DNA from: Vicia villosa
Lineage: Eukaryota > Streptophyta > Magnoliopsida > Fabales > Fabaceae
NCBI RefSeq assembly: GCF_029867415.1
Contig: NC_081185.1
Location: forward strand, 30,704,245-30,768,244
DNA length: 64,000 nucleotides
Direction of reading: 5' to 3'
In this document: positions 5,929 to 62,623 of the stretch, in pieces
How positions within the stretch are numbered: position 1 is the first letter of the stretch
Layout: every line of letters starts with the position of its first letter
Notes under the pieces: model-generated
The model's input: only the letters and a program-made list of their open reading frames with translations
Databases searched by the model: none
What the model was told of the DNA's origin: nothing
Position numbers and translations under genes: made by a program

Positions 5929-6040
5929 TGTTCTGCTTACACAAACAATCCAGTCAGAACGAAAGTATCGATAAATAACTCGTATTAGTCGCATACACAG
6001 AAAGACTGACACTAAGACTCTGGTCACAACGACCGACTAT

Positions 6041-11858: not shown

Positions 11859-14800
11859 TTATTCAAGGAGTTTCAATCCCATACCTCTCAAGGTAGTCTT
11901 TACTAAATCTCTAACCAGTGGTTTAGTAAATAGATCATCCAAATTATAGCTTGTTTGTATATAAGTTAGTGAAATGATCTCATCCTTAATCAATTTTCTC
12001 ACGAGAGAGAGTCTAAGACCTATGTGTATAGACTTTCTATTGTATACTTCACTTAATGCTCTAGCTAGGGTGACTTGACTGTCACAATGTATCAACACTT
12101 TTGAAACATTTTACTTAGCTAATGAAACCTCCAACAGAAGGTCCATCAACCATTCTGCTTCTATTCCAACAGACGCAAGAGCCACAAAACCCAATTCCAT
12201 GGCTGAGAGAGTAATGCATGTTTATTTCTTGCTCTTCCAAGAAATCACACCTATAGCTAATGTAAATGTCCACCCACTTGTAGATTTATAATCTCCAACA
12301 TTCAATATCCAACTCGCATCGGTATATCCTTCTAATATGACAGGAAACCTACCATAATGAAGGCCAAGATTTTTGGTCTTTAAAAGATAACCGAAAATAA
12401 TAGTTTTTGCCTTCCAATGTTCATCATTTGGATTGTTACTAACTGCAAATGCTATGTCAAGTCTGGTGCATTGTATTAAGTAGATTAGACATCCAATTGC
12501 ACTTGCATATTCCAATTTGGCCACAATTCTTCCATTGTTCTTTTGAAGTTTGACACTAGGATCAAATGGAGTGTTTACTTCCTTAAAGTTGAGGTGTTTG
12601 AACTTATCCAACATTTTCTCAATATAATGTTTTTGATTAAGTTAATAACCCCCACTATTTCGTTTTACTTTGATCCCTGATATAGTGACAACTAACCCAA
12701 GATCTTTCATCTTGAATGTGGAATTTAGAAATCCCTTTGTTTCTAAGAATCCATTCATTTCATTGCTAATGATTAACATGTCATCAACATATAAACACAA
12801 ATATTACAATGTTTCCACGCACTTTGTTTACAAGCATTTGTCTCAAGAATTTGGAATAAACCCATTTGAAAGTATGAAGGAGTCAAGCTTTTGATGCCAT
12901 TGTTTTGATGTCTATTTCAAATCGTATATGGATTTAACAAGTTTACATACCCTTTGTTCATTTCTAGAATGCACGTAACCTTCTGGTTGCTCCATGTAGA
13001 TTTCCTCATCGAGATCTCCATTTAGGAATGTTGTTTTAGCATCCATTTAATGAACAATAAAGTTATTCAAGGAAGCTAGTGCAAACAATATTATAATTGT
13101 CGTTGTTTTTTCTACTGGTGCATATGTGTCAAAGTAACCGACACATTCCTTTTGTCTAAACCCTTTTACTACTAATCTAGCCTTGAAAGTGTTTAATTTA
13201 CCATTCCTATGATATTTTTTCTAAACACCCATTTACACCCAATGTGTCTTGATCCCTTGGGAAGATCGACAATTTTCCAAGTGTGATTTGACATAATTCA
13301 ATCAATTTTGTCTTGGAGAACATCCTTCCAAAAGGAAGAGTCCCTTGAAGCTACCGTTTCTTTATAGGTTTCAGGATCATCCTCCACTTGAAGAATAATA
13401 GGAATATAATGAACATCATTCTTGTAATTTTCTTCAACTAGAAAAAAATAAATAAGTTGAGAATCGACTTCATTTGGTCCTAGATCCTTAGCCTTTTGGG
13501 CCCTTTTACTTATCCTAGGTTCGGGTTGTGTTTCAATATTCCGCGGAGAATCTTTCTCACGAGATTCTTCGGGATTCTCAGGTTCCTTATCTTTTGTGAT
13601 AAGATTTTTGAATAATTCTACATCTCGGGATTCCACAATTACATTAGACTTTGAATTTAAAAGCCTATACACTTTGATGTTGGGTTCATATCCTATGAAA
13701 GCACATCTGATCCCTCGAGGACCTAATTTAGTTCTTTTGGGATCCCTATTCTTGTAATATGCCACACACCTTCACACTAAAGTAACCAATATTTAGTGAT
13801 CTTTCTTTCTATATCTCATATGGAGAAATATCAGTTATTTTCAAAGTAATCATGTTCATTATGTGACATGCGAATAATAACGCCTCACCCCAAAAATTAA
13901 ATGGAAATTCAGAACGCACTAACATAACATTTATCATTTCTTGATATGTTCTATTCTTTCTTTCATCCAGGCTATTTTGTTGTGGTGTACGAGGCACATA
14001 CCATTCATGTATAATGCCATATTCTTCACGATATGCATCAAATTCTGCAGAAAAGTACTCACCGCCTCTATTGCTTCTAAGTACTTTTATACTTTTTCTT
14101 AATTGATTTTCTACTTCTGCTTTATAAGCCTTAAAAGCATTAAAAACATCATATTTATGCTTTAAAAGGTATACATGTGTGAACCTAGAATAATCATCGA
14201 TAAATGTTATGAAATAACGGTTTCCTCCACGGGTCACCATGCCAGTAAATTCACACAAACCATAATGCACAAGATCAAGCACATTTGGTTATCTTTCAAC
14301 ACCTTTGAAAGGTTTCTTGATCATTTTTTATTTAACACATATTTTGCATTTTTCAAAATCATGAATGTTACATGAGATCAATCCGAATTTAATCTATTCA
14401 TAGTACTAATACGAACATGTGCTAATCTAGAGTGCCATAATGAAATAAATTCAAGCATATAAGCAGAATTAAAATTTCATTAATAATATTGGCAGTAGTA
14501 CAAAGTTTAATCATTCCTTCAGCAGAATATCCTTTTCCTACAAATACACATTACAGGTTAATATTGGCGGTAGTACAAAGTTTGATCATTCCTTCATATA
14601 CAAGTCCTCACTAACAAGGTTCTTATTCATGCCGGGGACATGAATTACATTAACAAGAGTGACTTTATTTTCGGAAGTGAAGTTAAGTTTGACGGAACCT
14701 GTTCCAACGACTCTAGATCGTACTTCATTTTCCATTTGTACTTCTTCTCCATCCTTAACTTCAGAGTATGTTTTAAATGCTACTTTGTCATAAGATACAT

Positions 14801-15748
14801 ACTCGGTTGCACATGTGTCATACCACCTCCTTGCATTTTTCCTTTGATTACAATAATTTTGCTCACCGTAGTGATTATTTAATCATCAACATGAACAATA
14901 TTAACCTCTTTTTCGGGCTTGTTGTGCTTGCAGTCTCGAGCATACTGGTCTGATTTGCCGTATACATAGCATCCATTTTTTGTACCCTTTGGTCCACCAG
15001 AAATTTTGAACATGTTATGTTCCTTCTTAAGGCCAACATGGTTCTTCATACCATCATGTTTTGTGTTTTCTTTTGCAGTAACAACATTAACTTTAGAAAA
15101 TCCAGCAGACTCAGATTTTTCTCTATCCTTCATCTCCTCCTCGATTCGAAGGTGTTCTCGAAGTTTCTCCAACGAGAGATCTTCAGAACTATGCAACAAT
15201 TTCTTTCTGTATCCTTTCCATGAAGGTGTAAATTTTGCAATAATTGCACCGGCTTGGAAAGCTTCAGGAATGTCTATTTTTATGACTTTTATTTTATTCA
15301 CGAGAACCTGTAACTCGTGTACTTGTGCAATAATCAGCTTGGAATCCAACATTTTAAAATCAAAGTATTTAGATATTAAATTTTTTTCCATACCTTCTTC
15401 TTCAGCCTTGAATTTGAATTTGAGTGCTTTCCAAATCTCTGTTGCAGATGGAGTATCGGTGTATTGATCATAGAGACGGTCATACATTGTGTTCATAATA
15501 TGTCCACAGTAGAGTAATTCATCTTCCTTTTGTTTCTTTCGTTCCTTTTTCACTTCATCAGTATCGTTTTCTGTTGGTTCTGGAATTGGTTCCAAATCAA
15601 AATCCAAGATATAATGAAGTTTCAGGGTAGTTAAGAGAAACATAATTTTGTCTTGCCAGCGGGTGAAGATTGTTCCATCGAAACGATCCAACTTGACAAA
15701 GTCCTGGTTTATCAATTTGATGCTTTAGACTGAAGCGTCGGTGGCCAT
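11859..15748 (-). pseudogene. Gag-pol remains of copia-1
   Basis: Pieces in order: gag (15748-14879, ATG at 15748 with an in-frame TAA eight codons in) with a zinc knuckle damaged at its second cysteine and histidine; integrase core (14282-13809) with DDYSR, SNRGGEY in place of the usual SDRGGEY, and the QQN...ER motif; a linker (13765-13298); and the reverse transcriptase/RNase H end (12614-12222 and 12098-11859). Many stops and frameshifts separate them, and the region 13297-12615 is coding-like but broken (polymerase start of the family). Clearly a dead copy. Confidence 0.85.
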
Positions 15749-18074: not shown

Positions 18075-21000
18075 CTAGCTTTCTTCATGCAGCTTTATCA
18101 ACTGCATACAGTGGAAAAACTTGCAACTCGGCAATGTCTTGGTGATCATATCAGCAGCATTGTCTTCAGTCGAAACCTTCAGCACTTGGACTTCTCCACG
18201 CTCGATTACTCCTCTGACAAAATGCAGCCTCACATCAATGTGCTTAGTTCGCTCATGATAGGCTGAATTCTTCGACAGGTGTATTGCACTTTGACTATCA
18301 CATTTAACAGTGATACCTCGACCTTGAAGTTTCAGCTCCTTCGCAAAACCTTCAAGCCACAATGCTTCTTTCACAGCTTCAGTTAGGGAAATATACTCCG
18401 CTTCAGTGGTTGATAGGGCAACAACCTTCTGAAGTGTTGCTTTCCAACTAACTGCAGTGCCAAACATAGTGAAAACATATCCAGAAATAGATTTTCTGGA
18501 ATCAATACAACCTGCATAATTAGAGTCGACATATCCTCCTATTACTGCTTTACTATCTTCACCAAAGGCTCCATCATAAATTAGGACTCTATTGAGAGAC
18601 CCATTTATGTACCTTAAAATCCACTTCAATGCTTGCCAGTGAGCCTTTCTAGGATTCGCCATGTACCTGCTTACAAGACTTACTGCATATGCTATGTCGG
18701 GTCTAGTACAGACCATAGCATACATCAAAGAACCAACTATATTAGCATACGGAATGCTATTTATATAGGCTCTTTCAACATCAGTACTGGGACACTGATC
18801 AATACTCAGCTTGAATTGAGGGTTTGTTGGAGTCACAACTGGCTTCGAATTCGACATACCAAATTTTTTGAGAATCTTTCGTAGATATGCCTCTTGAGAT
18901 AAGCATAACTTCGAATTCTTTCTATCTCTTCGGATGCCAATTCCAAGAATCCTGGAAGCAGCTCCCAGATCCTTCATATCGAACTCCTTATTGATTTCAG
19001 CCTTCACCCTCGTCACATCTTCAACATTGTTGCTTGCTATGAGAATATCATCCACATAAAGCAACAAAATAACAAATGAATTACCAAGTCGAAATCTGAA
19101 GTAAACGCAGTGGTCGAACTGACTTCTAATGAAACTTATGCGTGCCATGAACTTGTCGAATCTCCTATTCCACTGTCGAGGAGATTGTTTCAGCCCATAC
19201 AAAGATCTCTTTAACTTGCACACATAATCTTCCTTCCCCTTTTCGACATACCCTTCAGATTGCCTCATCAGGATCGTTTCATCTAGATCTCCATACAAGA
19301 ACGCAGTCTTCACATCCATCTGTTCCAGTTTAAGATCGAACTGTGCTACCATGGCAAGTAACATTCGAATGGACCTATGCTTCACAACAGGAGAAAACAC
19401 ATCATTGAAGTCGACACCTTCTTTTTGAGTGAAACCCCTTGCAACTAACCTTGCCTTGTATCTTTTCGACGTCACTCCTTCAATTCCTTCCTTAACTTTG
19501 AAAATCCATTTACAGTTGACTAACCTTGCCCTAACAGGTTTCTTGATCAGTTCCCAAGTATGATTATCATGAAGAGATTTCATCTCATCTTCCATGGCTT
19601 TCAGCCATTCAGTCTTATTTCGACTCCTCATAACTTCCTTGTAGTCTCTAGGTTCTTCGTCTAAAACCTCACTTGCAGAGATTAAGGCATAAGCTATAAG
19701 ATCTGCATACCCAAGTCTCTGAGGTGCCTTGATGACTCTTCTCGACCTATCTCTCGACAATAGGTAGTCATCGTCAGTTTCCTCAACTTCCTCAGCATCT
19801 TCTGCTTGTTCTTTGACTTCATAAGGGATATGCAATTCAACATCAACATGCTCCACCTCAATAGGAATCTCTACCTGTTCCAGCTCTTCGTCATATGTTT
19901 CTGTACTTCGATCAACATCATCAGTTTTCTTAAAATCCATTTCAGCTTCATTGAAAACTACATCTCGACTTGTGATACACCTCCTGTGACCTGGCTCTAG
20001 GCACCATAGCCTATAAGCTTTGACTCCTTCTGGGTATCCCATGAACATTCATTTCAGAGCTCTAGGTTCGACCTTGTCTTGCCTAATGTGAGCATAGGCT
20101 ACGGAGCCAAATACTCTCAGTTTGTCGAGATCTGGTGGATGTCTCGACCAAACTTCTTCAGGTGTCTTCATATCTAACACTGTCGAAGGACATCTGTTTA
20201 TCAGATATGTTGCTGTTGAAACAGCCTCAGCCCAGAACACCTTCGTTAACCCCGCACTAGTCAACATGCATCTGACTCTCTCCAAAATAGTTCGATTAAA
20301 CCTTTCAGCCAAACCATTTTGCTGTGGAGTACCTGCAGTAGTTCTATGCCTTGCAATACCAGAGGCAGCACAAAAACTGTCGAATGCCTCATTGCGAAAT
20401 TCAAGGCCATTGTCAGTTCTCAACCTCTTGACCTTTCTGCCAGTCTGATTTTCAACCAGAGTCTTCCAACTTTTGAAATTCTCAAAAGTTTCATCCTTAG
20501 TCTTCTGGATGAATACCCATAATTTTATGGAATAATCATCTACTATGGATAGAAAATACCTTGCTCCTGAATGTGATGGACACCTTGCAGGCCCCCAAAG
20601 ATCAGCATGGATGTAATCAAGGGATCCATGTGTTCTTTGTTTGCCTTTGTTGAACTTCACTCTGCAAGATTTTCCAAGTACACAGGGTTCACAAAACTTC
20701 AGCTTTTCGACTTTGTCTCCACCAAGCAGATTTTGTTTCCCTAATTCGACCAGACCCCTTTCACTGACATGGCCCAATCTCATGTGCCAGATTTCTGTCT
20801 TCGACAAAGGTTTCGTGGCTGCAACATTTGTCGAACCACTTACAACTTCAGCCTCAAGGGTATACAAGCCTTGTTTCTTCACGTCTCTCAAGACTTACTT
20901 CGAACCCTTCATGACTCTTAGGATACTTTTCTCTCCTTGGAAAACATATCCTTTCTTGTCGAATTCACCAAGAGAAAGCAGATTTCTCTTCAAATCAGGA

Positions 21001-22051
21001 ACATACCTGACTTCAGTCAACAACCTTATTGACTCATCATGGAGCTTGAATCTAACAGATCCAATACCTGTAATCTTGCAAGCCTTGTTATTTCCCAGCA
21101 ATACTGATCCACCATCTTGATCACATAATTCCTCGAACAAGTCTTTGTTTGGGGTCATGTGCCAAGTGCAACCTGAATCCATAATCCACTCTCTTCTCGA
21201 GTCACTGATTGAAACCACAAGAATATCAGATGATTCAAAATCATCTTGAACAATGGCTGCATTGCCATTATCCTTACCTCCATGATCTTTCAGGCGTTCA
21301 TGGCACACCTTTCTTGTGTGACCCTCCTTCTTATAATGATAGCATCGAATGCCAGATGCTTCACCACTGTAAGACTTCGACTGACTTTTGCCCTTCTTGT
21401 CGAACTTACCATTCTTTCGCAAGAATTTTCCTTTAACGGCCTAACCTTCACCAACAGTCGAAGATTTATGCTCCTTTCGTTCATTCAAGTCCTTAGAATA
21501 CAAGGTTGATTGAACTTCTTCAAACGTCAGAGACTCCCTTCCATACAAGAGAGTTTCTTTGAAGTGAGCATGTGATCGAGGCCAAGAACACAATAGTAAC
21601 AGCGCTTGATCTTCATCATCGACCTTCACATCAATATTTTCAAGATCAAGAATCAGCTTGTTGAACATATCCAACTGCTCAGCCAACACTTTGTCTTCAA
21701 ACATCTTGAATGAATACAAAGCTTGCTTCAAGTAGAGTCGATTTACCAGCGATTTGGTCATATACAAACTTTCAAGTTTCACCCATAACCCTGATGTCGT
21801 CGTCTCCTTTGATACCTGTCTGAGACCTTATCACCAAGGCTCAACAAAATTGCGCTGTGTGCTTTCTCGATCATATTCGTCTTCTCTGCTGCCGTCAATT
21901 CTGCATTCATGGCTGCCTCTCCCTTCAACGCTTCCAAACAACCCTGCTGAACCAGTAGGGCTTTCATCTTCAAGCGCCACAGACCGAAATCATTCACTCC
22001 GGTGAATTTTTCAATCTCATACTTTGTTGAAGGCATCTTCTCCACGCTCAC
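18075..22051 (-). pseudogene. Gag-pol of copia-3, nearly complete but broken
   Basis: Reads gag from about 22051 (the likely start region, with MPSTKYEIEKF just inside), a zinc knuckle CYHYKKEGHTRKVC (second cysteine replaced by histidine, near 21340), protease with MDSGCTWHM (near 21175), integrase (HHCC near 20800-20660; catalytic DDYS, TDNG, QQNG..ER), and a full-length reverse transcriptase with YVDDILIAS and RNase H (20048-18075, 657 codons open). Lesions: a 1-base loss near 21826, and in-frame stops at 21441 (TAG), 20895 (TAA) and 20049 (TGA). All other frames join in phase. No complete polyprotein can be made from this copy. Confidence 0.93.
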
Positions 22052-22557: not shown

Positions 22558-23840
22558 CATTGTAAGAGTGGCAAAACGGCCCGGTTCGCAGAACAATGTC
22601 TGTTTTGCTCGCACTTTTATGCGAGGCGGATTAAGATTTTGGATCTGCATTATCTAATGCGTCTGCTCGATCTATTTTTTTAAGTTTTTACAGACGCAAA
22701 CATTAATATAAATTTTTAAATTTTTAAATTTAAAATAATCCAACTAACTCTACTTTCAATTTTGTTTTTTTAAATAATCAATATTTTAAACTCACACTCT
22801 TAACTAAGCTTAAACTTAAAGATAATACTATATTGATATCTAAAGGTTAAGGGGGTAACTTTTTCTCTAACGAGTGTTGAGTTGATGTTGAGATTTATGG
22901 TGAACTTCACAAAGAGCAATGACTTTTGAATGTCAACTTAGATGGAAAGAAAATGTGATATGGGGTTGGTTTGTTAGAAGAATGCTACACTGACCGGTGT
23001 AATTGTCATGTTGGTTGTTTATTTTTTATTTATGTGTACTTGTCTTGTTCTATTGTACTTCTGAATAATGCTTCTTTGATTATAATTAAAAATAAATAAA
23101 AAGTAAAAATAATTTAAATAAAAAGTAAATATATTAGTGAGTGGGCCCACGCAGATGTTTCTGCAATCTTGCTTCAAATTCTATGCTTGCAGACAGTTTA
23201 AAACAACCAACACCAACAAACCAAGGGAGTACTTGAAAAATTGATTAGGCTGAAAGTCCATTATCAACATCCGGTGTCTGTAGGTTGTTGTTTCCTACAC
23301 CACCAGGCACCATCCAGTCTTCTTCTCTACTCTATCACGCCTCTTGTGCTGTCATTCTCGCATTAAAGCCAAGGACCCCAAATTCACATGATGCATTCAA
23401 TGCTCTTTTATATTATCTTCATCTCAACATTCATTCAATATATCACAAATATTTAATTATTTTAGAATACTATCTCCATTTTTCATTTTCATACAATAAT
23501 TATTATTATTTTTTTAATATGTATGAAAAGTTCAAAACGACTTATAACAATAAATACGAGAAATGTTATTTATAAATTTTTTAAACATTTTATGAAAACT
23601 AATGTTAGTTTATTAATTTTGTCACCTTGAGAGAGAAGACCAACCCATGGGTTAGGAGTGTTAAATATTTAATGACCAAACCAAATGCTACTGTTTTTTC
23701 AACTACTTCCATTCTCAGCCTTCACGTCTACTTATTGTTCATTGTTGCACCATAAATTCTCTCCTTTCTCATTTCACCTCATTCAAGTATTATTATTTTT
23801 TTATTCACTCTTTCTTCTCCTCTTGAATTTGCTAGTTTCA
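22558..23840. other. Spacer and upstream region of the LRR kinase-like gene
   Basis: 22565-22585 (GTGGCAAAACGGCCCGGTT) resembles the end of hAT-type elements, but no inverted partner was found. The last few hundred bases before 23841 are pyrimidine-rich and probably hold the promoter and 5' UTR. An in-frame ATG at 23685 would add 52 hydrophobic residues before a good signal peptide, so it is unlikely to be the start. Confidence 0.55.
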
Positions 23841-26761
23841 ATGAGATATTTCTATTTCTATTTCCATCTCAACCTCTTTCTCCTTTCTTTGTTTTTCTCC
23901 ATCCACACTACTCATCAGCTACAATTCTCTCAAACTCAAGTCCTCCTACAGTTAACAAAGTATCTCCAATACCCTACCTCCTTACAAATCTTCCATAATT
24001 ACAATACTGACCTTTGCACCCTCACTCCATCTCATCACTTGAGTATTAAATGTGAGGGCAATTCAGTAACTGAACTCAAAATCATGGGAGACAAAACCAT
24101 CAAACATGGAAAGGTTTCCAGTTTCAATGGCTTTGCACTTCCAAACCAAACACTTTCCAAATCTTTCTCTATTGACTCTTTTGTCACAACATTGACAAGG
24201 TTAACAACTTTAAGAGTACTTAGTTTGGTTTCTTTAGGAATTTGGGGTCCACTTCCTGATAAAATTCATAGGCTTAGTTTCCTTCAAGTTTTGGATTTGA
24301 GTTCCAATTTCTTATTTGGTTCCATTCCACCAAAGATAGCTACATTGATCAATCTTCAAATACTAACACTTGATGGAAACTATTTCAACACCACAATGCC
24401 TGATTTTTTTGAACCTTTGTCTAATTTAAGTATCTTGAGTTTCAAGAACAATCAGTTAAAAGGCTCATTCCCTATTTCACTATGCAAAATCAAGAGCCTT
24501 ACTGATGTTTCCTTGTCACACAATGAACTATCTGGTGAATTACCGAATCTCACCGCGCTTTCGAGGTTACATGTATTGGATTTGATGGAAAATGGTTTTG
24601 ATTCTGAGGTACCGTTGATGCCGAAATCGGTTGTCACGGTGTTGCTAAGTAGGAACTTGTTCTCAGGTGAGATTCCTAGTCAGTTTGGTGAACTTAGTCA
24701 GCTTCAGAATCTTGATCTTTCGTCGAACCGTCTATCCGGGGTTCCTCCGTCGTCGTTGTTTTCTTTGAGAAACATTAGTTATTTGAATTTGGCAAACAAT
24801 GTGCTAGGTGGTTCAATTCCAAAGAAGCTGAAATGTGGGAGCAAGCTTGGTTTTGTGGATATTTCTGGTAACTTGTTAAGTGGTTTACTTCCTTCTTGTT
24901 TGGAAAGTATATCTGATAGAAGAGTTGTTAGATTTGGTGGAAACTGTTTGTCTGTTAATTCTCAACCTCGGAATCAGAATCAGAATCAGAATCAGAAACA
25001 CGGTTCTTATTGTGAAGAATCTAGTTCAGGAAAGATCAAGTTTTGGAGATGGGAAATTGATGCTGCAATTGCTATCATTGTTGTAGTTTTTCTTTTCTTG
25101 TTAGCTTTTGGAGTTTTCTTTTACAGAAAGTTTCATTCAAGAGAGATTTATAGGCATGAGATGTTGCCAAAGATTGTTCAAGATAATAATAATAACTCGA
25201 CAACAGGAGTTTCCTCTGAACTCCTTGCTAGTGCAAGTAAGTACAAACCCTAAGCAATATTCAGCGTGTTTGGATCGGCTTATTTGAGTTTATCGACTGA
25301 CATAAGCGCTTATTAGACTATTTAGAAGAGCTTCGATAATTAGTAATGTGTTATTTTCTATTTATTTAAGGGTATATTTCTCAAAAAATGAAGCTAGGGA
25401 CACAAACTACTACAACATGTAGACACTTTTCGATTGAAGAGTTGAAAGAAATCACAAGAAACTTCGATCTGTCAACTTATATAGGTGAAGGATCCATAGG
25501 AAAGGTATCGTTCGATTACGCAAAATATTCTTCGATGAATATTGAATAGTTTTCTATAATCATCTGAGTATTTTTGCTTCATTTCAGCTGTACAAAGGTA
25601 AACTAGAGAATGGATCTTATGTGATGATAAGATCATTGGCTCTAAGAAAGAAGTTGTCGATACAAAATCTCAAAGCTAGGTTGGATTTACTCTCGAAGCT
25701 TCATCATCCGAATTTGGTTAGTCTTTTGGGTCATTGTATTGATGGTAGAGGAAAAGAGGGTATTAGTCCCCAGAAACTTCATCTTGTATACGAGTATGTG
25801 CAAAATGGCGATTATCGTACACATTTGTCAGGTTAGTATCACAATTCACAATACAATTTTACGAATGCATAAATTTCATCAGAATGTGCTGTATTGAATG
25901 CTCTATTTAAACATGCAGAATTTTCACTCGATAAGGCGCTAAAATGGTCTGATAGATTATCAATCTTAATCGGAGTTGCCAAGGCGGTTCATTTTTTACA
26001 TACTGGTATGAAACCAGGTTGTTTTAGAAACCAATTAAAGACAAACAGTATTTTACTTGATGAACATCGCTTTCCCAAGCTAAGCGATTATGGTATGTCC
26101 ATAATTGCCGAAGAGATCGAAAATATTGAGGTATTGTTTCTTTCGTTACTTTTCAGATTCTTAACTTTCGTCTGTTGTTTTTTATCCTACATAGAGTGAC
26201 TCCGGTGGTTTCTATGTATTTTACAGGTAAACGGAGAGAAACTAAAATATTGGTATGTCTTAAAATTGGAGTTTTTCTACTTTGGTGCAATAACTTGCAA
26301 CTGAATTGTTAAACACCAACACATTTTTGTACTTTTGATTCTCTTGCAGCTTAAGGGAAGAATTGGAGGATGATGTTTACAATTTCGGATTCATATTGTT
26401 TGAATCACTCGCAGGACCAATTGCAAGTGAGAAAGGAGAAGCGTTTTTTCTTAATGAAAGGGTAAAAAAGCTCTTAAAAATCTCCGCGTCATTTTTCCTT
26501 TTGATTTATCGCTGAAATTCATGACGGTTTTGTGTACCGCAGGCATCGTTTGACAGTCATGATGGCAGAAAAAGAATTGTGGATCCAGTCGTGTTGACGA
26601 GTTGCTGTCAAGAGTCATTATCAATCGTAATATCCATCACAACGAAATGCATTTCTCCACAATCTTCATCTCGGCCTTCTTTTGAAGATGTGTTATGGAA
26701 TTTACAATATGCAGCTCAAGTTCAAGCCTCAGCAGATGCAGAGCATTCTATATCCTCCTAG
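23841..26761 (+). CDS. Probable inactive LRR receptor-like kinase (At3g03770/At1g14390-like)
   Basis: Seven exons inferred from splice sites and frame: 23841-25236, 25371-25504, 25588-25831, 25919-26130, 26227-26252, 26350-26461, 26543-26761. All six introns are GT...AG and phases match, giving 780 residues. Order: signal peptide (about 1-27), LRR ectodomain (about 125-375), an Asn-Gln repeat, one membrane span (about 408-428), then a kinase-like domain (about 490-770). The domain looks catalytically dead: the glycine loop GEGSIGK is present, but the VAIK lysine is replaced (YVMIRSLAL), the HRD-D-N loop reads PGCFRNQLKTNSILLDE, and DFG reads SDYG. The plasma-membrane family with these changes is called inactive LRR-RLKs and probably acts as a scaffold or co-receptor (family knowledge). 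Exon 5 (26 bp) is the least certain. The choice of ATG follows the signal peptide. Confidence 0.93.
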
Positions 26762-49409: not shown

Positions 49410-50502
49410 TAACTCACAACAGCTCACGCATCACATCAGCCAACAAAACCTTCAACAAATTCTTAACAAACGCAGTGAATCCATCATGCACAAGCAAGAA
49501 GAAAAACGTAGCAGCTTCACCAACCTACGTTTGACTCAATCAATAATTCTGCAACACAAATCCAACTTGCACCAATAACACTCTTATTCCTTGATTCAAC
49601 GATTCTTGAACAACATCCATCAGCATCGTCGCATCGATATCGTCATCATCGACGCGACAAAGCAAGCCAGACCTGCACACAATAATAACAGAAACGCCAT
49701 CGTTCACAACAATGCCAACTTGCAAGCCATAAATTTAACGCATCATGCAACATCTCTTCAACGATTCTTCTCTGATTCGGTACCATGAATTTCCATTTTC
49801 TTTAGCATATTCTTTTGATTGCTTGCACTTGATGTCATGTTTTTTTTTGCGTTGCTTTGTTTGATTGGCACGAATCGTTCTTATTTCGGGGAAAGAGTTA
49901 TTTGTTATCGTTGCACTTGATCTCTTTTATTTTAAATTTTTGTTGAATAATTATTAATGTATTTATTTTTTATATAATCATAATTTTTCTGTATTAGTTA
50001 TAATTTTAGTAATTATTAATATGAAATTTATAAAAAACTAATTAAATTTTTATGAGTTTTATTTTTAAATTTATAGTTGGAATTAGAATAGAAATATCAA
50101 CAGTATAATTATCATTATTATTATTCATAAAACTTATAAATTATATCAATTTTATGATATCTGAATTAATTAATATCTCAAATTATATCAATTTTATTGT
50201 TGTGCATATCTGAAAGAAACCTTTGACCATTTTTTGGGGTTTTTTCGGATATGCATATCCGAATTAACCAAGATCCCTATTTATTTGGGTGTTTTCGGAG
50301 ATGTATCTCCGAATTAACCAAAATTCCAGTTTTTTTGGAGATGCATCTCCGAAGGGTATTTTGGGGTTTTCAGCAGGGGTTTTCACCCCATTGGGGTCTA
50401 TAAAGAAATTTTATCCTCTTATTTGTTTCAAATGCATTATGGGCCTGTAGAAACCATAGCCCAGCGAAATTGCCATGTATACACCCCTCGTCAGACTTTA
50501 AT

Positions 50503-52542
50503 GAAAATTTTACTTTGTACCCCTACTGTTGCCTTTGTACCCCTACAATTTTTTAAAAATGGAAATTTTACCCTTTAAAGTTTTTATCCATTTTACTTCT
50601 TACTATTCACCCAAAAAGTAAAAAAAATCAGAAAACTACACCCCTACGCACTGCATTTCTGGAACTCTTTCTGCAAGTCATCCGGTACGTAAAATAACAA
50701 ATCAGAACTCATTCACCAAGACTTTCGGTTTACATGAGATGTATTCCGAAAGACTTCATACAAGTGTTCTGAAAAGGTGGAATTCAAACCGGAACACTTT
50801 GATGAAGTCTTCCGGAGCACATTTCATGTAAACCGGAAGTCTTTTTCCAAGTCTTCCGGGGGTGTTTCCGGTACTCTTTACTTAAGTCTTCCGGAATGGC
50901 TATGCATTTTTTTAATTTTTTCGCTTTTTTCCAGGTATGGAAATTCCTGTCCAGATTTGTCAAAAAAATGAGAGAACTGTAGATACAACTGATATTTTCA
51001 CAACTTCTCAAAAATTTGTCACACGAGAAGAGGTTGTCCGATGGATTAAAGAGATTGGAATCAACAATAAAGTAACTGTTATTATCACTCGTTCGGACAC
51101 CGAAACAGGCAAGAGAGGAGAAGCAACAAAGTGATAATTGGTTGCGATAAAGGGGGGAAATACAAGTAAAAGTGATACTCAAAGTGCGACTAAGAGACGT
51201 GGATGTCCATTCAAAATCAGGTCGACTCCAGCAAAAGATGGATCTGGATGGAAGGTTGATGTTAATTGTGGAGTTCATAATCATGGATTACCAGATAGAT
51301 TAGAAGGTCATTCCTTTGTTGGTAGGTTGACCGCAGATGAGAAGCAGCCTGATGTTGATTTTACAAAGAGACATGTTCTGCCTAGACACATATTGATTTC
51401 CTTGCATGAGCGAGATCCTAAAAATGTTACTCGGATCACGCAAATATACAAGCATAAGAGTGTGATAGAAGCAGAGATAAGAGGTCCAAGAAGTGAGATA
51501 CAACATTTGCTTAAGCTTATAGAGGAGGCAAACTATATTTATTGGAGTAGGAAAAGAGATGATTCGGAAGTTGTGAGAGATATTTTTTGGGCTCATCCAG
51601 ATTTGGTGAAGTTGCTGAATCTCTTTCCAACTGTCTTGATTATGGACGCCACATATAAGACAAACAAATATAGACAACCTCTGTTTAAAATAGTTGGCAT
51701 GACATAGACCGAGTTGACATTTGCTGTTGCATTTGCTTATATGGAGTGTGAGCAGACAGAAAGTTATTGTTGGGTCTTGGATAAGCTGAAGCAATTGTTT
51801 GTGAAGAAAGATCTGGGTCCACAAGTGATTTTGACGGATATAGATCTTGCTTTGATGAAAGCATTTCAATTTGTGTTTCCCACGACGCATAATTTGCTAT
51901 GTCGATTTCACATTAACAAAAATGTTGGGATGAAATGCAAGGAATACATGGTGAAAGATATGCAAGAGACGATAAACACATTGTGGAGAGATGTTGTATG
52001 GGCTCGTAATGAGGTTCAGTATGGTGAATGGTTGCAATATCTTGAGCAAGCATGCTTTGCTTGTAGTGACTTCCTCGATTACGTGAAAAACACTTGGTTG
52101 ATTCCATATAGGCAAAGATTTGTAGGCGCATGGATTGATCGAGTGCTTCATTTCGGTAACACCACGACTAATCGGTATGTCATAATTTTGTCTTTTTAGT
52201 ATGTATTAATTTTTACGATGTTATTTTTTTGGTATACTTACTTTGTTTTATTTTTAGGGTTGAGTCTGCACATTGGAAGCAAAAGCGGAAGAGTTACCTG
52301 AAGTGTTCCGATGAGCTTTCATGTAAACCGAAAGTGTTCCGGTTTGTTTGAGCTGTGAACCAGAACTGTTGCGAAAAGTGTTTCGGTTTGTGAAATTTTA
52401 AATTTATCAGAGTGTTTTCGGTAACAAAGGGTGAAAAGAGGAAAATGAAAAAAAATTACTTATTTATACGAGGGTAATTTGGTCCAAAAATTTTAACTGT
52501 ACGGGTACAAAGACAATAGTAAGGGTACAAAGTAAAATTTTC
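50503..52542 (+). mobile_element. MULE with FAR1-type transposase remains, TSD GACTTTAAT
   Basis: 2,040 bp. Terminal inverted repeats of about 70 bp start GAAAATTTTACTTTGTACCC at both ends and are flanked by a perfect 9-bp duplication, GACTTTAAT (50494-50502 and 52543-52551), the Mutator hallmark. Inside the ends are several CCGGAAGTCTT / AAGTCTTCCGG motifs and the sequence TTCATGTAAACCGGAAGT in direct and inverted copies (about 50731, 50823, 52319), which could be transposase binding sites. It sits within the presumed Tat/Ogre LTR. Confidence 0.97.
50937..52330 (+). pseudogene. MULE transposase with FAR1 DNA-binding domain, broken
   Basis: Pieces: N-terminus (50937-51134, MEIPVQICQKNE...), FAR1-type domain with KRRGCPFKIRSTPAK (near 51195) and NHGLP, then the MULE transposase core with MDATYKTNKYRQP (near 51643), LTDIDLALMKAF (near 51830) and CRFHINKNV (near 51900). 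A frameshift near 51110-51140 separates the first two parts and an in-frame TAG at 51705 interrupts the core. After NTTTNR (52173) a GT...AG intron (about 52174-52258) leads to VESAHWK, after which the gene is lost; the C-terminal SWIM finger is absent. Not functional as it stands. Confidence 0.9.
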
Positions 52543-52551
52543 GACTTTAAT

Positions 52552-53894
52552 TCAAATATATATTAGGCCTCTGATGCTTCAGCCCAACGAATTTACTATT
52601 ATACACCCTGCCAGCGCTTCACTCATCCCCAAGACTATTTGTTTCTAATTTGGGTCATTGACTATGGGCCAACGCCCTGTTTCTTCCAGCACCCCCCTCT
52701 TTTAGTTATTTTGTTAGCCCAATTACTTTAGTTTATTTTATTATTTATTAGTTTTTATTTATTATTTCTTTTATATTCATGATATTTAAAATAAAAACAA
52801 AAACATGTTATATTTATTTGTCATATTAAAAATATCCAAAATATTTTATTTACAATTAGATTTTTATTCTCTTTATTTAATATTAAAAACCTAAAAATAT
52901 GTTTTAAGTTTAGCTTTTTGATTTTCTCTTTTTAATTAAAAATCCCAAAAATATTAGGTAGATGTGCATAACAATATTGGGACTTAGGATTTCCCCTTTC
53001 ATATTACAATTAGACTTTCACTTTCTCTTTTTCTTTTTCAACTTTCAAAACACTCTAAGCATATTCAAATTCTTAAGGAAGAAAGCATTCAGATACCCAC
53101 ACCTTATGAGGGATCATCTGGTGTGCTATCCATTAAAAAAGAACAACAAACAAAATCTTAAAAAACACTCTAATTCTATTCGATAAATAAAGGAAAATTA
53201 TTCAGATACCCCCACCTTATGAGGGACCATCTGATGTACTCTCCTAAGCAAAAGTATTTAGATACCCCCACCTTATGAGGGACCGTCTGATGTACTCTCC
53301 TAAACAAAAGTATTCAGATACCCCCACCTTATGAGGGACCATTTGACTTACTAACCTCTAAAAAACACTCAACAAACAATTCTCATCTCTCTTGCCTTCA
53401 GGGCTTTCTTCCCCATAATCGGACATGTTACTTCCTTTCTATCGCAGACAGGTAACGCATAAGACTCCATCCAGCGAGCAGCTATCCTAATGCGAATGTA
53501 ACTTCGTCCAATAAAAAACACAAACACAAAAAAAAATATTGAGCCAAACTATGGCGCTCTGATTCCTCAAAAAGGATACGTAGGCATTAGGTCGCGGGGC
53601 CTAAGCGAGCATAATTTTGTAAATATTCCTTCTTTTCTGTTTATTTTCTTTTTCCACTTTTTGCGTGCATATTCCCTTAGCACTAGGCTTTAGACTCTTA
53701 GATAACACACCCTTAAATTAGAAGCAAGCTTGAGTTGATCCTGTGGAGTACCACAGACGTGAGGGGTGCTGATACCTTCCCCTTGCGTAACCGACTTCCT
53801 TACCCGATCTTTGGTCGCAAGACCTTTTTTTTATCAGTTTCTTTCTTATGGGTTTTCTCGATATTTTCCCTTCCCATGATTGGGATAAAAAAAA
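52552..53894 (+). repeat. 3' part of a Tat/Ogre-like LTR
   Basis: Contains GTGGAGTACCACAGACGTGAGG, GCTGATACCTTCCCCTTGCG and GGGATAAAAAAAATTGGTGGCGACT, a succession characteristic of legume Ogre/Tat LTR ends. It includes a 56-bp minisatellite (53201-53368). With 40988-41310 and 50413-50493 it would make one LTR of roughly 1.75 kb after removal of the two DNA transposons. The join is an inference. Confidence 0.6.
53201..53368 (+). repeat. 56-bp minisatellite in the LTR
   Basis: Three tandem units beginning TTCAGATACCCCCACCTTATG at 53201, 53257 and 53313, with a degenerate fourth near 53085. Confidence 0.92.
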
Positions 53895-54501: not shown

Positions 54502-55655
54502 TTTGGATATAAAACATTGAAAAAACATGAAAAATGATACCAATGGGCTTTGAACTCAGGATCATAACCTTCCTCATGCAATGACACCTTACCACTAGGC
54601 TAACTACTTCAACTTATTAATAAATTTGTATAAGGTCTTGAATGGTCAATAAATAAAGGATTTATACTAGAGTTAATTTGGATTTGAGTTTTTTCATTTT
54701 CATCCTTAACCTCCTTTTACCAGAAGCAACAGCCGGAGCCATCAAATTCGCTTCCTTTCTTTTCATCTTACTATAAATAAACAATACTAAACTACGCACA
54801 CACATGTCAACTGCAAAGTAATCCCCAACAACAAAAGGCACAACCATTTCCATAGGAAGGGTGACCCATTTCCGAATATTTTTAGGGTTCAATCTCTTGT
54901 AAAGTTAACTAACATAGTAAATGAAAAACACCCATAATAGATAAGCTAGTACCATCTCATAGCCTACCACAAAAGGATATTATTTATGGAGATTATGGTG
55001 AGTACTCCATAACTGCACATGATAACCATATTGGAATACTTTCTTTTATAAAGAATTCATCGCAGGTAAGATCGTTTGGAGTCTCGTTTTAGTTATCATT
55101 TGTAACTGAAACTGTTATGTGATTCCTCCTTTTCACCCAGACTTGAAAATGTAAGGCACTAAAATATATAACTTTGATAAAATTGTAGAGTCCATCACCA
55201 AGGATTAATGCAATGGAAATAAAAACCTCGCACCATGAAAATAAAAGGAGGTTGGGGATGGAAATGAAAAAGCTTAAACCCAAATTAAAGTTTGTAAAAA
55301 AAGATCTTGAATGATCAACAAATCAAGGATCTCTATTAGAACTAATGTGTTTTGAACCCAAGACCATAGCCTTCCTCACGCAATGAACCTAGGAGGAATC
55401 AAATTGGTACTATTCCTCTTGCACCATGAAAGTAAAAGGAGGTTGAGGATGAAAATGAAAAAACTCAAATACAAAGTAACTTTAATATAGATCCTTGATT
55501 TGTTGATCATTCAAGACCTTGTACGAATTTATTAATAAGTTGAAGTGGTTAGCCTAGTGGTAAGGTGTCATTGCATGAGTAAGACTATGGTTCTGAGTTC
55601 AAAATCCATTGTTACCATTTTTCATGTTTTTCAATGTTTTATATCCAAAATTAAA
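54502..55655. repeat. Large inverted repeat with tRNA-like boxes
   Basis: 54502-54725 matches the reverse complement of 55430-55655 closely. Both arms hold tRNA-like promoter boxes: plus strand TTAGCCTAGTGGTAAGGTG (55549-55567, A-box-like) and GGTTCTGAGTTCAAAATCC (55589-55607, B-box-like), and the mirror pair on the minus strand at 54603-54585 and 54565-54547. Partial copies lie in between (55195-55400). These look like tRNA-derived SINE-like sequence, not tRNA genes. Confidence 0.65.
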
Positions 55656-58150: not shown

Positions 58151-58831
58151 TTTGATAAAGTAATTAAGACAAGTAAGTTTGGTTGCACCAAAGGGACAAC
58201 AGAGTGTCTCATGAAATGTTTGTACATGGAAGAAGAGGAGAAAGAGTTAATGAACAGGGTATTCATATGAGTTTGTAGAAGGGAATAACAATAAAACCAA
58301 AGGTATATTTATACACCTTTGAGTTTATTTTGTTGAATCCTCTACTCTCCTAAGAAAGAAAGAACCATTTAATAAAATGCAGAAATGAATTCTTTCATGC
58401 TGAGTTTTTGATTTTCTTTCCTTTGAATAAATATCCTCCTTAAATAATATATCTTGTAGCTCACAATATCCAGAGGTAATGATTTTATGTTTATTAAAGG
58501 TCATGTTTCATGCGGATTTTTTGTTTTGAAATTTGGAAAAATAAAAGACTTTTTCTTTACCCACCTCCCTATGGGGGTCACCCCCAGCGAAATTTCCAAC
58601 TTACCCCTGCTTCGGAGATTCATCTCCGAAGTAATTTTTTTTTTTAGATTTTTTTAGATTTCGGAAATGCATCTCCGAAAACACCAAAAAATTGGTGTTT
58701 TCGGAGATGCATTTCTGAAATGCATCAAAATTCATTTATTTTTTACAATCAGGTAAGAAAACCACTACAGGACAAAAATTGTAATCAACCTGATTAGAAA
58801 TTTCGAAGTGCCTTTTCTTTCTCCCCCACCA

Positions 58832-59210
58832 CTCTTAGACGGTTACCTTCTAAGAAATGTGGTAACACTTTCCTACTTAAAAGTCAGCTCTCTCACCCAT
58901 TTTTCTTCCAATCACATCCAAAATCATTTCCGATCCTTACTCTTTTCCTCTACTCACACATTTTCTCTCTCTTGTAACCGCTTTCATCATAATATCTCGC
59001 CGCGGTTGAGGAAACCATCCCGAAAATTGTCGGAGTCAAGCATCTCCTGCACATTCTCAACAATCATCCGTCAGTGCTGCAGGATCAGGCCGTGGTTGTG
59101 GTGGCCATGGCTCTCGCGGTGGACGTACCGCCGGTTCTTCCTCCTCCTACTCCTACATATGTTGCAGCTCCAGTTGTTCGTCCACCTGTTGCAGCGCCGT
59201 TTCTTTTTAA
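58832..59210 (+). pseudogene. ARGONAUTE (AGO5-like) 5' end, copy 1
   Basis: Aligns with copy 2 from CTTAGACGGTTA through the promoter/5' UTR (TATA-like CCTACTTAAAAG) into the coding start, and stops at about 59210 after the proline-rich part. The start codon is ATA (in ATAATATCTCGCCGC), and a TGA follows four codons later (GGTTGAGG), so no product can arise. The shared first line of the protein (SRRGGGN) and GRG-rich stretch identify it with copy 2. Confidence 0.85.
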
Positions 59211-59445
59211 AAATATAGCACTCTATATATTTATATCTACTATTTAATTTTTTGTATTCCAAAATAATGCAATAGTAGTAATAAAGTGGATTTTGGAAAA
59301 AATGATAAATATATCAAATAAATGATAGTAAATATTCACCATTACAGGAGTCATTCTTATCGTTAATTAAGAACTCAAACGATCTTTGTCCTAATACGTA
59401 ACAAAAATTGGGAAGCTCCACAGCCACGCGCTAATTCCATTTTGT

Positions 59446-60176
59446 TACTTAGACGGTTAACTTCTAAACACTTTCCTATTTAAAAGATTCTCACCCATTT
59501 TTCTTTCAAAATATCCCAAATCATTTTCGATCCTAAGTCTTCTTCTTTGCTTTAACGTTTTCTATCTCTTGTTACTGCTTTCATCACAATATCTCGCCGC
59601 GGTGGAGGAAATCATCCCGAAAATCGCTGGAGTCAACCATCTCCTGCACATTCTCAACAATCATCCGTCAATGCTTCAGGATCAGGCCGTGGTGGTGGTG
59701 GTCGTGGCTCTCGCGGTGGACGTACCTCCGGTTCTTCTTCCTCCGGACATCCACCTCCTCCGTCATATGCTCCGGCCCCAGTTACCTCTCCTCCATCTGT
59801 TGTTGCAGCTCCGGTTGTTCGTCCATCTGTTTCAGCGCCGTTTGTTCCATCTGTCGCAGCGCCGGTTGCTTTCTTGAGTTCGGCTCTAATTTCCATCGAG
59901 AGCCTGACTGCCGAAGTTAATCAGAAGGCTACTCTAGAGTCGGCTCAATCATCTCAGAAGGCGGTTAGGTTCCCTAACCGACCTGGTTACGGTCAATTGG
60001 GAAGGAAAATTCAAGTTCGTGCTAATCATTTTCAGTTGCGAGTGGTTGATAAGGATCTATACCACTATGATGTAAGTATAGTTTGCTCATAAGTTTTTTG
60101 TTGTTGTATATTATGTTGGTAAGTTACAATGTGGTATGGGTTTCTAGAGGATCAGGACTTTCTAACCTGTTGCAGC
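59446..60176 (+). pseudogene. ARGONAUTE (AGO5-like) 5' end, copy 2, with exon 1
   Basis: An open frame of 161 codons runs from an ATA in the start position (59589) to a splice donor GAT|GTAAGT (60071). It encodes a Gly-Arg-rich and proline-rich N-terminus and then the ARGONAUTE signature VRFPNRPGYGQLGRK...VRANHFQLRVVDKDLYHYD. The exon end after HYD matches the ARGONAUTE gene structure as I know it. About 140 bp of upstream DNA (TATA-like CCTATTTAAAAG, 59481) is also captured, and intron-like DNA follows to about 60176. Start codon lost, no later exons. AGO5 versus another AGO is by resemblance of LYHYDVSI and is not certain. Confidence 0.88.
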
Positions 60177-60537
60177 GTCTCCTCCATCGTCTTCATCCGA
60201 TTAAATAAAGCGAATTGTTCTTGTTTGTTATTTTTCTTCTGTCCAGACCTTATTTCGGAAGTGCATTTCCGAATTCCTCCAAGGGGGGTGAATTCGGAGA
60301 TGAACTTCCGAATTCACCAATTTTCTGAAAATTAACCATATTTCGGAGATGCATCTCCGAAATTAATATTTTTCATTAAAATATTCACCTTTTCGGAGAT
60401 TCATTTCCGAAAACACTTTTTTTTCCAATAAAAGTACGTTTTCGGAAATGAACTTCCGAAATAAGGGGTATTTTTGTAAATTCGCCAGAGGTGACCAAGA
60501 AGGTTAGGAGGTTGGTTAAGAAATTTTCAAATAAAAT

Positions 60538-60649
60538 TTAGTTTTAACTTTAAGTGTTAAATTTTAATTGTGAATTATAAATCTTAGTTTTTAGTTTCAA
60601 TTTTAAAGCCACTCTATTGACCAATATTTCTTTGAAATTGAATTTCTGT
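60538..60649 (+). other. 5' UTR of the LINE
   Basis: AT-rich 112 bp between the Pack-MULE flank and the first good ATG of ORF1. The true LINE 5' end is not marked by a visible target duplication inside the window. Confidence 0.4.
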
Positions 60650-62623
60650 ATGGATTGGCAAAAGAGTAAGGGCAAGAGGGTTTTCAAACACATCACTCCG
60701 CGTTGGGACGTTTTCCCATTTGGGGGCCGGAAGTTATCAGGGGAGGCAGCGACTAGGTGTTCCTCCATCTTTTTCTCAGATTTTCCAGATAGAGTGAACG
60801 CAAGGGACATTTTCAGTTTGTTTGGATGTATCGGGGATGTTTATGAAGTGGTGATTTCACCCAGGAGGAACAAGTGGGGGAAGAGGTTTGGCTTTGCGAG
60901 ATTTAAGGAAGTCGATGACGTTCGTGGGCTGGCGATTAAATTGGACAATGTAGTCATTGATGGAGCTAAGATACATGCTAATCAACCGAGGTTCGAGAGA
61001 TTCACAGGTGCTGGTGGGGCTTCTGCTGGTAAGCCAACGGAGTTTGAGACGCATCGCAATAATGTGTTGCCTTTCGTTAGGAAGAAAAAGTGGGATCCGG
61101 GGGTCAGGAGAAGAACTTTTGCTGAGGTGCTTAATGGTGAGGAAGCGAAGGTAGGTGAGGAGGTTCCGAAAGTTGTGTTGAAGTTTTCTTCGTCTCCAGA
61201 GGCCATGGTCAGATTCGCCAAGGCATATGTAGGGAAGGTAGTGAACGCAGGTATGACATATAACATCCAAACTTGCTTCGAAACTGAGGGCTATTTCTCT
61301 ATTAAGGTGACGCCGTTGGGCGCGAATTTATGTTTATTGGAAGAGGTAGAGGAAGGTGATATAGAGGCTCTGATTAGGGAAGGTGAGAGCTGGTGGAAAC
61401 AGTGGTTCACTGAGATCAGGAAGTGGAGGAAAGAGGATGTAGACGAAGAAAGGGTAACTTGGTTAAGGGTGTTTGGCGTTCCTAGCCATGTTTGGGGCTT
61501 CGAATTCTTTGAGTTTCTTGCTAACAGGGTGGGTTCCTATATTTGTTCTGATGAAAACACCATGAAGGCAGTGAGTCTTGATGTTGCCAGGATTATGGTC
61601 AGATCACATTGTACGAAGGTATTAAATGAGGAGGTTTGCGTTATGATCGATGGGGCTCCATTCACCATCAAGATCATGGAGGACTATCAAGGTCCTCTTA
61701 GAATTAACCTTCAAAACTCAGGTCTGGAACCCGCAGCTTTGGATGCTTCAGATTCTGAGGAGGATTGGTTTCAGAAGCTTAGTGGGGATAGGGATGTAAG
61801 TTCTCTGGATAATTCTTTTACTGGCTCTGTCGACGGTGCCGAGAAAGAGTTGGATATCTTGCTAGAGCCTATAGTGTCGCAACAGGCTCGTGAGACGGGA
61901 GGGATGGACATTGGGATACCTAGTGAGGGTGGGAGCAAGGGGTGTAATTCGTCTTCTTCTGTGAAAGATCTTGTGGAGGAGGTTCCTTCTAGCTTCGATG
62001 AGGCAATTGGAGAGGCGTTGAAGAAGAAAGTCGCGGTTAAGGGGAAGGAAAGTGCTGGTAGCAGTTTGCAAGTCATGGAGGTATTAGCTCGTCCTGTAGT
62101 GAGCTGTTCTATGGATACGGTGTTTAGGATGGATGGTCCTCATAATGATATAACAGCCCCCTGTAAGGTGTTGGAGAAGGCAAGATGTGGAGTGAAAGTT
62201 AAGAATAAAGTTTTAGTTGATTTGGTAGGTCCTCTTTCAATTAAGAAGAAGAGGTTGAAGAAACGTTTGCTAAGCGAACAACCGGATGTCAGGAGCAGCC
62301 TAGCTGCCGAAGCTGATGGAGGGGCAGGAAAAGATGAATTAGTGTTATCTCCTTTACATGAGGATGCCGGTGAGGATTTCTCAGCGGGTGCGGTGCTTTG
62401 TAGTGATCCTATCTCAGATGGCGATATGATTAACTGTAACAATAGATTTTGGGAAAATACGGAATCTAACGTGGGAGCAAAGACATGGGAGGAGATTTGC
62501 AAATTGAGTGTGGTTAGTTTAAATAGTAATTTTGAACACAAAAAGAAGCTGGATGATTTGGAGAAGTTGGATAAAGCCAGATTGGTTAGCAAGAAGGAGA
62601 TTAAAAAAGGGGTTTTATGTTAA
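60617..62623 (+). CDS. LINE ORF1 (RRM and DUF4283-like protein)
   Basis: Open for up to 668 codons; the more natural start is the ATG at 60650 (MDWQKSKGKRV), giving 657. It has an N-terminal RRM (RNP2-like IFFSDFP, RNP1 KRFGFARF; about residues 35-115) and a DUF4283-like region with WLRVFGVPSHVWG, followed by a long acidic, serine-rich tail. No CCHC knuckle is seen. Plant L1-type LINE ORF1 proteins bind the element RNA and act with ORF2 in target-primed reverse transcription (family knowledge). Intact within the window. Confidence 0.9.
   Translation: MTNISLKLNFCMDWQKSKGKRVFKHITPRWDVFPFGGRKLSGEAATRCSSIFFSDFPDRVNARDIFSLFGCIGDVYEVVISPRRNKWGKRFGFARFKEVDDVRGLAIKLDNVVIDGAKIHANQPRFERFTGAGGASAGKPTEFETHRNNVLPFVRKKKWDPGVRRRTFAEVLNGEEAKVGEEVPKVVLKFSSSPEAMVRFAKAYVGKVVNAGMTYNIQTCFETEGYFSIKVTPLGANLCLLEEVEEGDIEALIREGESWWKQWFTEIRKWRKEDVDEERVTWLRVFGVPSHVWGFEFFEFLANRVGSYICSDENTMKAVSLDVARIMVRSHCTKVLNEEVCVMIDGAPFTIKIMEDYQGPLRINLQNSGLEPAALDASDSEEDWFQKLSGDRDVSSLDNSFTGSVDGAEKELDILLEPIVSQQARETGGMDIGIPSEGGSKGCNSSSSVKDLVEEVPSSFDEAIGEALKKKVAVKGKESAGSSLQVMEVLARPVVSCSMDTVFRMDGPHNDITAPCKVLEKARCGVKVKNKVLVDLVGPLSIKKKRLKKRLLSEQPDVRSSLAAEADGGAGKDELVLSPLHEDAGEDFSAGAVLCSDPISDGDMINCNNRFWENTESNVGAKTWEEICKLSVVSLNSNFEHKKKLDDLEKLDKARLVSKKEIKKGVLC

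Follow-up and report, generated by a model that had tools for sequence, protein, structure and literature searches.

A Pack-MULE-type element of Vicia villosa carrying captured AGO5 5′ DNA in two decayed copies

In a 64,000-nucleotide stretch of Vicia villosa DNA (contig NC_081185.1, positions 30,704,245 to 30,768,244; the window, whose first letter is position 1), we found a 1,982-bp element at 58547–60528. Its ends, which carry TTCGGA...TCCGAA palindromes, are related in inverted orientation, and between them one AGO 5′ region occurs twice, as partial copies in direct orientation (58834–59205 and 59448–59846). The element is real, of Pack-MULE type and loaded with AGO5 cargo: ordinary in kind, striking in what it carries. 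Classification as a non-autonomous Mutator-like element of the Pack-MULE type, with foldback-like palindromic ends, captured AGO5 5′ DNA and two decayed direct copies, is in our judgement very probably correct. Gene capture by MULEs is routine; here, the cargo (the AGO5 promoter region and first exon) comes from the machinery that silences transposons. The first-pass annotation had proposed a Pack-MULE with captured and duplicated ARGONAUTE 5′ DNA, a proposal well supported by the ends, the flanking repeat, the captured intron and database proteins that combine AGO5 with the element end, leaving aside whether the duplication arose inside the element.

The 5′ terminal inverted repeat region spans 58547–58721 (plus strand) and its 3′ counterpart 60340–60528 (minus strand). 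Alignment of 58552–58721 with the reverse complement of 60340–60523 gave 124 identical bases out of 166 ungapped positions (75%), with 22 gap positions. When flanks and palindromes were excluded, the outer ends (58547–58610 versus 60461–60528) scored 34, which none of 1,000 mononucleotide shuffles matched, only narrowly above the best shuffle at 30; the outermost 20 bases agree at 15 positions. An 8-bp direct repeat, AAATAAAA, borders the element on the left (58539–58546) and on the right (60529–60536). This repeat sets the left edge one base further out than the extent first annotated (58548..60528), which otherwise holds. The chance of a shared 8-mer in flanks matched for A-richness was 0.0012 with fixed ends and 0.0083 when either end could shift by a base; as the repeat is A-rich and only 8 bp long, it gives modest support as a probable target-site duplication. 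An empty insertion site was not observed.

hAT elements likewise make 8-bp duplications. The element could be another terminal-inverted-repeat element, such as a hAT, or a foldback element rather than a MULE, and the flanking repeat of 8 rather than 9 bp and the imperfect outermost match (15/20) would suit such an origin. We consider it unlikely given the long modular ends, the gene capture, the database protein P0063 and the MULE transposase remains in the window (both below), and legume MULEs with modular foldback ends have been described (MuTAnT, PMC4486113). MULE terminal inverted repeats are often hundreds of bp long and their target-site duplications measure 8–11 bp (PMC6446971), and both hallmarks, inverted repeats and a duplication in this range, are found here.

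Eight 20-bp palindromic modules of the TTCGGAgaTGcATcTCCGAA type lie within the element ends. Three are on the left (58611–58630, 58660–58679 and 58700–58719) and five on the right, of which 60254–60273 and 60293–60312 belong to a stretch of element body (60145–60339, plus strand) common to the database proteins P0016, P0063 and P0064, and 60342–60361, 60392–60411 and 60441–60460 to the 3′ terminal region. With up to three mismatches allowed, the module pattern matched 26 times in the window, that is, at 13 places on both strands, against 0.04 matches expected. Its presence outside the element (8 of the 13 places fall inside) would be in keeping with a decayed AGO5 pseudogene locus that happens to lie between unrelated end-like repeats. 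That explanation is highly unlikely, as the ends match one another and share a flanking repeat, and P0016 and P0064 each combine AGO5 DNA with the 3′ end seen here. The pattern had no exact match in viral contigs, and the exact 20-mer occurred in no paper of the literature searched.

Eight kilobases away, 50160–50440 aligns with the left end of the AGO5 element (score 94; 0 of 1,000 shuffles as good, best 32). The outer part of this stretch, without palindromes, aligns weakly (score 25; 0 of 1,000 shuffles, best 22). Judging from these alignments, we take it to be another element whose ends are built alike, at about 50.2–50.4 kb. The first-pass annotation had made its reading depend on inverted ends in other copies, and like ends are present here, at least locally. 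No flanking repeat of the 50160–50440 stretch was seen by eye. Palindromes also occur near 17.3 and 41.9 kb, but these places were set aside, their alignments to the element ends being weak (scores 35 to 46, no control).

Remains of a MULE transposase lie at 51138–52196 (PF10551; the second piece gave E = 6.8e-15, and the first, at 1.5e-4, stayed below the cut-off), enclosed by inverted arms at 50503–50550 and 52495–52542 that are 90% alike. The stretch 50440–52620 is a decayed MULE transposase element (PF10551). Just outside its arms, at 50458 and 52581, an AGCCCA(G/A)CGAA-type motif stands in direct orientation, as if the whole were nested in an older element; by eye, the AGCCCAGCGAAATTGCC stretch at 50458 resembles CCCCCAGCGAAATTTCC near 58581. 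Ahead of the transposase open reading frame (ORF) and in frame with it, with two stops between, is a stretch beginning MEIPVQ (50937–51131), which had no match to a Pfam transposase family. Inside the AGO5 element itself, no transposase was found among stop-to-stop ORFs of at least 70 amino acids, as judged by length and by eye; the Pfam scan among the element ORFs covered the copy-2 AGO frame and returned ArgoN and one chance match.

The two segments had been annotated as copies of one ARGONAUTE promoter and exon 1, and they are indeed identical at 315 of 354 aligned ungapped bases, in direct orientation. Copy 1 (58834–59205, plus strand) consists of upstream DNA and a partial exon 1, with ATA at 58992, a stop at the sixth codon and indels, including internal deletions. 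An AT-rich spacer (59206–59447) separates it from copy 2, which begins with upstream DNA and a 5′ leader (59448–59588, plus strand; TATTTAAAAG at about 59478 is TATA-like by eye). Then follows an exon 1 remnant (59589–60071, plus strand) with ATA for ATG and no Met in the open frame; the 161 open codons and splice donor first ascribed to copy 2 were found again, the frame running to a GTAAGT. This frame stayed open in 1 of 2,000 mononucleotide shuffles. An extension of the duplication upstream of 58834 and 59448 was rejected: the spacer has no significant similarity to the 109 bp before copy 1 (414 of 500 shuffles as good). Just before copy 1, 58777–58827 (plus strand) resembles the N-terminal part of P0007, an AGO5-like protein of V. 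villosa (14 of 17 residues), and may be either AGO-upstream DNA or element DNA common to the P0007 locus.

Copy 2 matched 46 of 5,895 candidate proteins at E ≤ 1e-3. Its best full-length matches were AGO5 of V. villosa (P0017; E = 8.4e-62, 79% over 99% of 164 residues), pea (P0018; E = 3.2e-61, 70%) and Vicia faba (P0019; E = 4.2e-52, 65%). Residues 126–163 matched the Argonaute-4 entry 6oon_A (4.3e-6), and Pfam ArgoN scored 27.4 bits against a cut-off of 30.9, with the first 27 of 142 profile positions present. From these similarities, we regard the AGO identity of copy 2 as beyond chance and assign the gene to AGO5. The ranking of the AGO5 matches points to a host in the Fabeae, probably vetch-like. 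The parental AGO5 is absent from the window, where the tblastn matches of V. villosa AGO5 (E ≤ 1) were the two copies only. In viral contigs, 550 pattern matches to the AGO frame yielded no confirmed relative, and Rfam had no match at gathering score anywhere in the window.

Exon 1 of copy 2 ends in GAT followed by the donor GTAAGT, after which about 70 bp of intron 1 are kept (60072–60144, plus strand). Within these, 60097–60144 resembles the intron read-through of a pea-like AGO5 fragment, P0002, with 13 of 16 residues matching (E = 4.3e-5 in the window); none of 500 shuffles did as well in the matching frame, whereas the two remaining frames, with 61 and 194 of 500, are not significant. Because the start of intron 1 is present, the captured DNA is genomic, ending near 60144. 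The element thus carries part of a known protein-coding gene of the host, AGO5, including intron DNA. An open stretch seen by eye at about 60141–60210 on the minus strand had suggested a further captured gene; this was rejected, as the stretch is element body common to P0016, P0063 and P0064.

In comparison with the AGO5 genes of the Fabeae (V. villosa P0017, pea P0018 and V. faba P0019), the exon 1 sequence is shared and the copy-2 frame ends at the donor where AGO5 intron read-throughs start, but the element copy is truncated and lacks both ATG and the PAZ, MID and PIWI domains. The 178-residue open stretch around it (59556–60092) contains no Met. As they lack a start codon and retain no more of the N domain than its first part, the element copies cannot make AGO5.

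The link between AGO5 DNA and the element end recurs in database proteins. Used as a query against proteins, copy 2 matched 16 of 858 candidates. One of these proteins, P0016, contains SRGGRTSGSSSSGHPPPPSY of AGO5, about 60 residues without a clear AGO match and then 90 residues like 60232–60501 (59%, E = 1.6e-23). Searching with P0016 in turn retrieved P0016 itself, P0063 and P0064 (3 of 173 candidates). P0064 starts with MWYEFLEDQD at 60129 and runs into the 3′ modules, matching 60129–60468 (E = 2e-34), although no more than about 15 bp of it fall within the AGO5-intron match. P0063 carries the element 3′ region 60150–60288 (E = 3e-7), and its front part aligns with the MEIPVQ stretch at 50937–51131 (score 47; 0 of 500 shuffles as good, against 273 and 204 of 500 in the other frames). 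The N terminus of P0063 may on this one weak alignment be transposase-like; against Pfam, P0063 had no transposase family match, and P0001, P0003, P0016 and P0064 had no Pfam match at all. An AGO5 exon piece (P0016), an AGO5-intron tip (P0064) and a possibly transposase-like N terminus (P0063) thus each precede the same element 3′ end, which supports the Pack-MULE-type reading. As a count of related sequences, these three proteins stand beside the one further element with like ends in the window.

Of the 354 aligned bases, 39 differ between the copies; the upstream part accounts for 21 (among 140 bases) and the coding part for 18 (among 214). These 18 coding differences fall on codon positions 1, 2 and 3 in numbers of 11, 3 and 4, which is not the third-position pattern of a constrained gene. 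CpG-type changes make up 6 of the 21 transitions between the copies, a count without an enrichment statistic. An Arg-Arg pair of P0001, P0003 and P0017–P0020 reads Cys-Arg in copy 1 and Arg-Trp in copy 2; in each case a C-to-T change at a CpG, confined to that copy, accounts for the difference, and such changes would be compatible with methylated DNA. The copies remain identical over runs of 33 and 22 bp.

Both copies have ATA in the same context, AATATCTCGCC, at 58992 and 59589, as first annotated. At this codon, where both copies read I, the AGO5 proteins of V. villosa, pea, V. faba and red clover (P0017–P0020) start MSRRGGG, and the parental codon was therefore ATG; the first-pass annotation had asked whether the start of the parental AGO gene is ATG, and all four proteins inspected begin with Met. 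The further claim that the ATG was lost before the duplication fared less well. Taken alone, the ATA in both copies suggests a single loss, but copy 2 has derived residues of P0001 and P0003, which start with M: all three share T-S after GGR and V-S-A after RPS, and P0016 also has T-S. Copy 1 retains T-A and V-A-A, like V. villosa and pea AGO5, and has R-P-P in common with P0007. (The RPP and VAA sites of P0007 and P0017 were read from the sequences, as the MAFFT rows misplace them.) One residue conflicts, the Cys in GRGCGG common to P0003 and copy 1. Either ATA may have arisen twice, or the copies may have exchanged sequence, or P0001 and P0003 may stand off the line of descent, or a few residues mislead.

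The V. villosa 'argonaute 5-like' protein P0007 also bears on the order of events. Within its 171 amino acids, the N-terminal stretch like 58777–58827 (E = 2.4e-4) is followed by a copy-1-type RPPVAA exon-1 stretch, by exon 2 and then by a 13/13 match, in a shifted frame, to 59729–59767 of copy 2 (E = 0.007). Because pieces of the copy-1 and copy-2 types follow one another in P0007 as they do in the element, the paired arrangement is perhaps older than the insertion of the AGO5 element, and the duplication may predate it. The P0007 gene model looks chimeric, as if assembled from two AGO5 5′ pieces, and could represent a pseudogene or a wrongly annotated element. We therefore weighed a donor in which the AGO5 copies already stood in tandem, a duplicated AGO5-like locus that the element captured or now surrounds. 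Both piece types in order in P0007 and the different closest relatives of copies 1 and 2 at most of the telling residues argue for such a donor, whereas P0007 is a single predicted gene model that may itself be an element copy and the characters are few, with the Cys in conflict. A tandem donor is a real possibility, though less likely than not.

For the Pack-MULE-type element, the course of events was very probably as follows. The element captured the genomic 5′ end of AGO5, from the upstream region through exon 1 into the beginning of intron 1. Its movement presumably depended on a MULE transposase supplied in trans. At present it is most likely a silenced pseudogene passenger. As a weaker possibility, read-in transcripts from both ends could form double-stranded RNA over the AGO5 segment.

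An effect on the intact gene, raised in the first-pass annotation, by which small RNAs from the element act on AGO5 and weaken a component of silencing as a decoy or anti-silencing effect, would draw on several observations. Rice Pack-MULEs are transcribed, and on two chromosomes 248 of 475 annotated Pack-MULEs match transcribed regions, sense and antisense about equally (PMC1808428); in Arabidopsis cells associated with reproduction, AGO5 binds small RNAs that derive from transposons (PMC10980394); and the two copies share the identical runs given above. However, the AGO copies are direct, not inverted, and the inverted ends enclose the AGO5 DNA but do not contain it. The palindromic ends account for 17 of the 19 inverted pairs found, stems in the minimum-energy RNA fold of 58834–60144 reach at most 13 bp without interruption, and the decay appears neutral. 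A simple hairpin source is unlikely because the AGO5 DNA is outside the inverted ends and the longest stem is so short; an RNA effect would need antisense transcription or an RNA-dependent polymerase. We consider such an effect very improbable. Bolder still, and with a very small probability, a transposon family of vetch-like legumes may turn its AGO5 promoter and exon 1 sequence into a weapon acting through RNA: transcripts from both directions would yield small RNAs, or methylation aimed at the promoter, and the resulting damping of AGO5 would aid transmission of the element. If small RNAs of the element match AGO5, a transposon would be regulating part of its own silencing system; if there are no such small RNAs, the element is an instructive example of neutral decay in captured DNA.

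The window as a whole is AT-rich (35% G+C) and contains other mobile elements of plant type. A LINE-like ORF1 with RRM and DUF4283 domains (60644–62620) starts about 115 bp past the AGO5 element. On the minus strand, 1618–6036 is the coding region of a Ty3-type LTR retrotransposon (gag, protease, reverse transcriptase, RNase H and integrase by Pfam), and 13298–15724 and 18075–21440 are two Ty1/copia-type coding regions (Pfam matches for three ORFs). A long ORF at 23676–25253 has leucine-rich repeats and, by eye, a C-terminal hydrophobic stretch and is receptor-like. Two 200-bp arms (54521–54720 and 55432–55631), 711 bp apart, form an inverted repeat that is 90% complementary.

Among the closest known systems are the Pack-MULEs of rice and other plants (PMC4858842, PMC1808428, PMC6446971), with which the element shares a non-autonomous nature, MULE-type ends, a genomic host-gene fragment and no transposase found inside; it differs in its cargo, AGO5 as two direct partial copies, and in ends made of palindromic modules. 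No title among the literature listed for Pack-MULE and argonaute matched an AGO-cargo Pack-MULE, a statement confined to that list, and in PMC1808428 the word argonaute occurs in the reference list only. The MuTAnT or foldback-type elements of Medicago truncatula are likewise legume MULEs with long terminal inverted repeats of foldback modules, but their quoted terminal-repeat mask begins GGGGTTTGC, unlike the ends described here, and they have a TA-repeat target and a 9-bp target-site duplication (PMC4486113); the term 'capture' is absent from the text of that paper. The VANDAL/Hiun MULEs with the anti-silencing protein VANC (PMC6446971) share with our element a MULE cargo that bears on silencing, although VANC is a working protein, whereas the AGO5 element holds only an untranslatable fragment.
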